In this document: in pieces, positions 34,159 through 35,997 of the stretch
How the letters are laid out: each line of letters begins with the position of its first letter
Numbering within the stretch: position 1 is the stretch's first letter
Assembly (NCBI GenBank): GCA_016194905.1
Contig: JACQAP010000019.1
Location: 1 to 64,000 of the forward strand
Direction: 5' to 3'
Length of the DNA stretch: 64,000 nt
Source: Betaproteobacteria bacterium
GTDB taxonomy: Bacteria; Pseudomonadota; Gammaproteobacteria; Burkholderiales; JACQAP01
The notes under the pieces: generated by a model
What the model was told of the DNA's origin: nothing
The model's database searches: none
What the model saw: the letters and a program-made list of their open reading frames with translations, nothing else
Position numbers and translations under genes: made by a program

Positions 34159-35175
<1,017 letters not shown>

Positions 35176-35235
35176 TTATCCCGCGTGTTTCGCGGATATT
35201 AATTTATTGATTTATTGAAGAAAAGCCATGGATAT

Positions 35236-35263
35236 GGAACTTTCGACCGCCTCGATACTCTGA
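35236..35263 (+). promoter_or_regulatory. sigma-E (RpoE-type) promoter
   Basis: GGAACTT (35236-35242), exactly 16 nt, then TCTGA (35259-35263). Both elements and the spacing match the RpoE consensus of enterics and of betaproteobacteria. The predicted start is 35269-35271, immediately before the first hairpin of the downstream small-RNA candidate. Confidence 0.72.
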
Positions 35264-35269
35264 TAGCGT

Positions 35270-35378
35270 AGACAGCGATGTCTCCCGCTTCTCCTCCCTG
35301 AGCGGGTGCCTTAATCCAATTGAGGCTTTGTTTTACCCCCCGGTTTTAGTCCCCTTTAACCGGGGGTTTTTTATTTTA
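35270..35378 (+). ncRNA. candidate sigma-E-dependent small RNA with anti-Shine-Dalgarno loop
   Basis: About 109 nt with four stacked hairpins: (1) AGACA/TGTCT with a GNRA loop GCGA (35270-35283); (2) CCCGCT (35284-35289) / AGCGGG (35301-35306) with an 11-nt loop holding CTCCTCCC; (3) GCCTTAA (35308-35314) / TTGAGGC (35320-35326) with one G-U pair; (4) a 9-bp terminator stem (35337-35345 with 35358-35366), C-rich loop, then TTTTTTATTTT. No open reading frame of note lies inside. Loop 2 complements GGAGGAG-type ribosome sites. It is transcribed between hemB and engB on the opposite strand and ends 17 nt before the engB stop. I do not recognise an Rfam family. Confidence 0.65.
35337..35378 (+). 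terminator. rho-independent terminator of the small-RNA candidate
   Basis: A nine-base-pair GC-rich stem followed on the plus strand by six Ts, A and four Ts. On the minus strand the flank is not T-rich, so the orientation is clear. No protein-coding gene on the plus strand lies upstream for 1.1 kb, which implies a non-coding transcript. Confidence 0.85.
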
Positions 35379-35394
35379 CCCGCACGTTTGCACG

Positions 35395-35997
35395 CTAGGC
35401 GGGCGCGTACCACCGATTCAGCACCGCTTCTGCTTCATCGATTCCGATCCTCGTTTCCGCCGAGAACAACTGGACCGACACATCGGGAAAGTCGGCGGCA
35501 AGTATCTTCGTGGTATTGCGCAGCTGTTCCATTGCCGGCTGCCGACCGAGCTTGTCCGCTTTGGTAAGCAGAATATGCACGGGCCTTCCAGTACCCTCGA
35601 ACCACCCCAGCAATTGCCGGTCGAGGGGCTTCATTGGATGGCGGATGTCCATGACCACGATCAGGCCTCGCAGTTGCGGACGTAACTGCAGGTATCCCGA
35701 GATCAGCAATTCCCATTCGTTTCTCATCCCTCGCGGCACCTTGGCATAGCCGTAACCGGGCAGGTCTACCAGAAAGCGCTCGCCTCCAAGACTGAAGAAA
35801 TTGATCTGCTGGGTTCGCCCCGGTGTCTTGCTTACGAATGCCAGTCGATGGCGTTGCGCGAGCGCGTTGATGGCGCTCGACTTGCCTGCATTCGAGCGGC
35901 CGGCAAATGCGACTTCCACCTGCGAGGGCGGCAAGCCGCTCCCGTCGGCGGCCGACGTGAAGAAGGCGATGTCGCGAAACAAACCTGACTGGCTCAT
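35395..35997 (-). CDS. engB: ribosome-biogenesis GTPase EngB (YsxC/YihA)
   Basis: GTPase for late 50S assembly. 200 aa. G1 GRSNAGKSSA, G2/switch threonine in KTPGRTQQIN, G3 DLPGYGY and G4 TKADKL are all present, and the C-terminus keeps the SAE G5 motif (LFSAETRIG). It is divergent from the cytochrome c4 gene with 73 nt between the starts, the same arrangement as in many beta- and gammaproteobacteria. Confidence 0.95.
   Translation of the reverse strand: MSQSGLFRDIAFFTSAADGSGLPPSQVEVAFAGRSNAGKSSAINALAQRHRLAFVSKTPGRTQQINFFSLGGERFLVDLPGYGYAKVPRGMRNEWELLISGYLQLRPQLRGLIVVMDIRHPMKPLDRQLLGWFEGTGRPVHILLTKADKLGRQPAMEQLRNTTKILAADFPDVSVQLFSAETRIGIDEAEAVLNRWYAPA

Follow-up and report, generated by a model that had tools for sequence, protein, structure and literature searches.

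The window, by which we mean the whole stretch of 64,000 nucleotides that was analyzed, harbors at 35236–35378 a four-hairpin RNA with a sigma-E-type box upstream of it, which confirms the observation made in the original prediction. The element occupies the 231-nt gap between the start of hemB (35163) and the end of engB (35395), and both flanking genes, likewise named in that prediction, were confirmed by Pfam (Table 1). The RNA from 35270 to about 35375 has a minimum free energy of −42.2 kcal/mol (z −5.08, with none of 200 shuffles folding equally well), in agreement with the four hairpins that had been drawn from the predicted start. This start, placed 7 nt past the −10 element and at the base of hairpin 1, lies 107 nt upstream of where hemB translation begins, and transcription from it would head away from hemB.

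Table 1. Features of the hemB–engB gap and its flanking genes, in window coordinates
Feature	Position	Strand	Evidence and remarks
hemB (ALAD), divergent neighbor	34162..35163	-	Pfam PF00490, E 4e-138
Sigma-E (RpoE/AlgU)-type promoter, GGAACTT-N16-TCTGA	35236..35263	+	sequence; conserved at the same place in relatives; GGAACTT 35236-35242, TCTGA 35259-35263, 16 nt between
sRNA gene (anti-hemB/ncS04 family, including the 5' hairpin)	35270..35374	+	about 103-105 nt; Rfam match and start predicted from the -10 box
Hairpin 1, GCGA loop	35270..35283	+	fold; beyond the Rfam model; covariation at all 4 consensus pairs, with pairing in 100% of cells
Hairpin 2 with 11-nt anti-Shine-Dalgarno loop UCUCCUCCCUG (35290-35300)	35284..35306	+	fold; loop conservation
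Hairpin 3	35308..35326	+	fold; compensatory changes at 4 of 5 consensus pairs
Intrinsic terminator with C-rich loop and U6 (stem 35337-35345/35358-35366)	35337..35372	+	fold and consensus pairs
engB (ribosome-binding GTPase), convergent neighbor	35395..35997	-	Pfam PF01926; synteny marker common to other orders

Family identity and published transcript

An Rfam search, which had been proposed as a check on the original prediction, matched 35281–35374 to the full model (1–81) of RF02837, anti-hemB, at 71.5 bits against a gathering score of 49.5, and this was the sole family above cut-off in the whole window. The placement beside hemB in reverse orientation is that of the anti-hemB family. Since the match begins within hairpin 1, the Rfam model omits this hairpin. 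The presence of an sRNA gene on the plus strand is therefore borne out, at the level of sequence, by the Rfam match, the fold and the conservation described below, and the gene is a member of an established family for which a transcript has been published, a point that the original prediction had missed.

Previous work, cited here and below from excerpts of the papers, identified ncS04 of Burkholderia cenocepacia J2315 as anti-hemB, a transcript of 105 nt that is visible on Northern blots and whose 3' end was obtained by RACE; its level showed no significant change across the seven qPCR conditions of Table 2 of that study (PMC5688073). Anti-hemB is also listed in B. pseudomallei (PMC3521395). 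The passages of these two papers give neither a regulator nor a function for it. In B. cenocepacia NCTC13227 (L216), a 105-nt RNA ending with the last base of the T-run would start at C-GAGCGGC, the base of hairpin 1. The 5' end implied by the published length thus coincides with the one that a sigma-E −10 element would predict. The same 105-nt stretch folds at −54.5 kcal/mol, and the fold reported for ncS04 in J2315 by mfold is −52.7 (PMC5688073). The start near 35270 given in the original prediction is supported by this agreement in length. The core of the sRNA is thus already known through RF02837 and the published transcript, and the novelty lies in the conserved sigma-E-type promoter and, as far as sequence comparison can establish it, in the union with ErsA, a kinship that the original prediction had missed.

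Two similar loci were observed elsewhere in the source genome (L002, 1501–1570, and L003, 1501–1568), each with GGCTCCTCCCC, a hairpin and a terminator and with weak likeness to RF02837. Neither gave an Rfam match above cut-off, and they possibly represent another C-rich sRNA in two copies.

Conservation of the RNA and of its sigma-E-type promoter

Relatives were sampled as order genomes and loci, from the order of the source genome, and as class genomes and loci, from other orders of the same class. With RF02837 at E up to 0.001, matches were obtained in 153 of 200 order genomes (132 above cut-off) and in 124 of 274 class genomes (14 above cut-off); among 14 control genomes, three gave weak matches and none exceeded the cut-off. 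Two alignments, A1 (43 of 44 loci) and A2 (32 of 34 loci), were built from loci passing a filter for a box score of at least 9, a plausible distance and less than 93% likeness, with L108, L136 and L143 excluded by hand; because the filter demands the box, both alignments are uninformative on loci without one. In the alignment of 43 order sequences, each trimmed to begin at the predicted start, bases pair in 98.1% of pair cells, and double changes occur at 14 of 23 pairs (5.8 in shuffles) and in 52 cells (9.4 in shuffles), neither figure being matched by any of 500 shuffles. The outermost consensus pair of hairpin 1 is present in 42 of these sequences, and the loop core CCUCC of hairpin 2 is invariant in all 43. 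Conserved loops with covarying stems, for which the original prediction had suggested that relatives be searched, are accordingly found, and its anti-Shine-Dalgarno loop proves strongly conserved.

Additionally, two metagenome-assembled genomes titled Klebsiella pneumoniae (L185) and Bordetella parapertussis (L274) contain the betaproteobacterial core, and of the two titles that of Klebsiella seems mistaken. At L031 and L086, alphaproteobacterial ar14 matched weakly (38.6–40.5 bits, cut-off 58.8), a hint of convergence or of a wider class of C-rich-loop RNAs.

The promoter was scored as the best GGAACTT-N16/17-TCTNA within 70 nt upstream, over 11 letters, with a score of at least 9 considered good; the window box scores 11 of 11. 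The order loci were the 71 best-scoring listed matches in the order together with L004, and the class loci were the top of the listed matches. The weak own-genome matches L002 and L003 were left out of the promoter counts, as was one of the 72 order loci, which has a short upstream region. A good box was identified at 61 of 71 order loci (controls further upstream 0 of 212, shuffles 2.1%) and at 37 of 48 class loci (0.7% in both controls) and is missing in the other 10 and 11, respectively, which bears out GGAACTT-16 nt-TCTGA as a putative sigma-E-type promoter. Across the order sample, 31 of 33 families contain at least one locus scoring 9, the exceptions being f189 (three loci) and f2 (one). 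Nine loci (L150, L153, L154, L138, L021, L008, L011, L098 and L102) are tandem arrays of two to four sRNA copies each, and 19 of the 22 copies listed for them carry their own box at score 9, with 3 of 22 lacking one. It is the conservation among relatives that makes the promoter motif significant, as alone it does not exceed chance in the source genome, where GAACTTN{16,17}TCTNA occurs 11 times versus 16 for the reversed control pattern; consequently, no wider regulon can be called from this exact-box search.

The source genome encodes RpoE (TIGR02939, 326.9 bits), with TGAACTA-N16-TCTCT upstream of the gene. A looser pattern chosen after inspecting the upstream sites of rpoE, GAAC[TC]-N16..19-GTC, is present upstream of rpoE in 24 of 31 order genomes, among them the source genome, versus 7 of 124 control windows; the GGAACTT consensus itself scored at least 9 in only 6 of these 31 upstream regions (controls 4 of 93). 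None of the RpoE-less order genomes (11 of 200, from f191, f212 and one of f202) has an sRNA match (Fisher p 4e-8), and with both genes taken at curated cut-offs the sRNA is found in 4 of 28 genomes without RpoE and in 128 of 172 with it (p 2e-9), both p values being overstated by the uncorrected relatedness among genomes. The four genomes with the sRNA and without RpoE are drafts, three of them at about 600 contigs or more.

A different explanation for the promoter region is that the RNA is a housekeeping or growth-phase sRNA under sigma-70, in which case the GGAACTT box would belong to another ECF sigma factor or be merely modulatory. An extended −10-like box, GGTATAT[CG]ATA, is indeed present in 47 of at least 120 named loci listed, which belong to Burkholderia, Paraburkholderia, Pandoraea and similar genera; these named loci were picked by an exact loop-and-stem match and are for that reason uninformative on loop conservation. 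A sigma-70 promoter would also fit the unchanged ncS04 level in the seven conditions (PMC5688073), the constitutive expression of sX13 (PMC3771888) and the two sX13 loci examined (L351 and L352), where the sigma-E box is absent. However, 61 of the 73 named loci listed without GGTATAT[CG]ATA have a sigma-E box scoring 9 or more, compared to 1 of 345 controls drawn from all named loci; among the 47 with it, 28 reach 9 and none reaches 10. Moreover, a consensus scan of 34800–35800 in the window found no sigma-70-like site to set beside the full-scoring sigma-E box, and the rpoE promoters of the same order are similar in form to this box. Burkholderia sensu stricto has GGTATATGATA in place of the −35 GGAAC (L161, L171, L214–L216, L218, L224 and related loci), suggestive of a promoter switch in this group and its kin, and such a divergence of the B. 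cenocepacia promoter could account for the flat expression of ncS04. We therefore regard transcription by sigma-70 as an unlikely explanation for the family.

Kinship with ErsA and sX13

By motif, 53 of 72 order loci have hemB no more than 1.6 kb away, and in several order loci the upstream neighbor is engB instead of hemB. Outside the order, polA is the upstream neighbor seen, and engB is downstream in most loci showing engB; the motifs located polA at 23, engB at 29 and hemB at none of the 48 class loci, and 11 of the 48 showed no marker at all, some being clipped by contig ends. These neighborhoods bear on the idea, embodied in the Rfam name anti-hemB, that the element acts in cis on hemB, either as an antisense RNA or as DNA forming the promoter or leader of hemB. 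The frequent adjacency within the order would agree with it, but other orders keep the box and hairpins beside polA or engB, most tandem copies each have a box of their own, and the RNA in the window is predicted to run away from hemB, making a cis-acting role highly improbable.

The ersA gene has been placed in the polA–engB region (PMC8575079), and ErsA is described as a sigma-22-dependent RNA of 132 nt (PMC7565897). In addition to the order model (R1), a model named R2 was built from class loci without Pseudomonas or ErsA. Within an OprD-rich family, R2 matched 32 of the 39 genomes at E up to 0.01, and 18 of the 20 best loci were identified by Rfam as RF01719 (Pseudomon-1/ErsA) above cut-off. 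Of these 18 ErsA loci, 17 adjoin polA or engB by motif, and GAAC[TC]-N16..19-TC[AT] is present within 45 nt upstream of 17, the eighteenth showing GAAACTT-TCTGA. R2 scores the window at 59 bits, eleven other betaproteobacterial loci at 50.8–71.3 and six ErsA loci at 30.0–39.4, and it returned a single weak match (18.4 bits, E 0.021) among 54 other loci covering 170 kb. R1 alone detects four of the six ErsA loci, at 15–17 bits, and misses two, so it is the bridging forms together with the box and synteny that carry the link to ErsA. As RF01719 gave no match in the window at E up to 1, the window sRNA is termed a homologue of ErsA and not a member of RF01719. L284 was identified as ErsA, and in genome G162, picked as OprD-rich, engB lies away from polA with ErsA beside polA.

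Two genomes of one genus in the OprD-rich family contain R2 matches that are not ErsA (L281 and L285). They show GGAACAT with GGTCAGTA or AGTCAGTA upstream, had no Rfam match above cut-off and are possibly another stress sRNA.

Small RNAs at the polA locus recur, with sX13, Spot 42 and alpha-r7 as examples (noted in PMC3771888). Weak matches to RF02232 (sX13) below cut-off were obtained at the bridging loci L024 and L031 and at the tandem copy L353. The window had no RF02232 match above cut-off and none at E up to 1 within 35150–35400, and the source genome had none at E up to 0.001. A hairpin-1-like inverted repeat spans the annotated 5' end of sX13 at L351 and L352, so sX13 may begin further upstream than the Rfam model has it.

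Rfam holds anti-hemB, ErsA and sX13 as unlinked families. We lean, by a modest degree, toward the view that all three descend from one ancient sigma-E-driven sRNA gene at engB/polA that predates the split between betaproteobacteria and other gammaproteobacterial orders. Both the promoter for envelope stress and the code of C-rich loops would then be ancestral. Burkholderia sensu stricto and Xanthomonadaceae would have lost or replaced the promoter, and some lineages would have amplified the gene in tandem.

Proposed function and comparison with known systems

We propose that 35270–35374 encodes a trans-acting sRNA of the RF02837 family that would be driven by RpoE from the box at 35236–35263, would repress several mRNAs through its C-rich loops, and shares an ancestral gene with ErsA and probably with sX13 of Xanthomonas; we give this reading a probability of about 0.7. 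The RNA is structured and conserved, its box lies at the right distance, and synteny and a sequence bridge connect it to ErsA, while RpoE dependence, pairing to Shine-Dalgarno sites, repression and the targets are what we infer. In the proposed mechanism, envelope stress would free RpoE, which would transcribe the sRNA from this box, and the C-rich loops, above all CUCCUCCCUG, would pair with G-rich ribosome-binding regions and lower the translation of several mRNAs. Through the CUCCUCC loop, a limited number of mRNAs whose Shine-Dalgarno sites resemble GGGAGGAG would be expected to fall. Related modes of action have been described for ErsA, which represses oprD translation with Hfq, and for sX13, whose C-rich loops act without Hfq to repress mRNAs bearing G-rich motifs (PMC3771888).

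The shutdown of outer-membrane protein synthesis put forward in the original prediction was not supported: five porin start regions, with guessed starts, were compared from three genomes of the genus, and their pairing with the loop (−6.7 to −10.0 kcal/mol) did not surpass that of ordinary genes (median −9.4 for 41 window genes). In the source genome, AGGGAGGA was found close to ATG at 25 sites versus 1 in the reversed control, and the frames behind these sites look mixed by eye; the count mostly restates the G-rich character of Shine-Dalgarno sites, and no target is claimed from it.

A role in growth arrest as a member of the double-hairpin Betaproteobacteria toxic small RNAs, with which it shares the CUCCUCC motif and of which ncS27 slows growth on overexpression (PMC5688073), is barely credible, since the weak RF02278 match (22.7 bits) falls far under the gathering score of 50 and largely refutes membership, and the RNA has four hairpins rather than two and fits RF02837 at 71.5 bits.

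In the literature covered, which was represented by excerpts, anti-hemB is an orphan for which no regulator or function is given, although it is expressed and conserved widely. Excerpts of the open-access literature contained no prior link of anti-hemB to sigma-E or ErsA. A conserved sigma-E promoter together with the kinship to ErsA would predict an inducer for anti-hemB and supply it with both a mechanism and a model system. Were anti-hemB, ErsA and sX13 united, three accounts now confined to single families would become that of one old proteobacterial envelope-stress regulator.

MicA, RybB and MicL of enterics are RpoE-dependent sRNAs, and the window RNA would share with them the regulator class of a sigma-E-driven sRNA. 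They act through seed regions of their own, in contrast to the C-rich anti-Shine-Dalgarno loops of the window, and no Rfam match to any of the three was listed for the window; the counterpart of MicA and RybB originally envisaged is thus better described as a homologue of ErsA.

With anti-hemB (RF02837/ncS04), the window RNA shares hairpins 2–4, the CUCCUCCCUG loop, the location between hemB and engB and a length of about 105 nt (PMC5688073), whereas the Rfam model lacks hairpin 1 and the promoter, and Burkholderia sensu stricto has lost the sigma-E −35 and has the GGTATATGATA box in its place. sX13 (RF02232) of Xanthomonadaceae is similar in adjoining polA, as relatives of the window RNA do in other orders, in having several hairpins with C-rich loops and in its G-rich targets, and differs in being constitutive and Hfq-independent (PMC3771888). 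ErsA (RF01719) differs from the window RNA in its polA neighbor, where the window has hemB, in its matched length of 121–135 nt, and in a U-rich, mostly unpaired stretch with CUCCU in place of the anti-Shine-Dalgarno hairpin 2. Like the window RNA, however, ErsA adjoins engB and has a C-rich terminator loop, and at 17 of 18 loci a GAACT-type box ends right before hairpin 1; for ErsA, both sigma-22 dependence and translational repression have been shown in the published work excerpted here.
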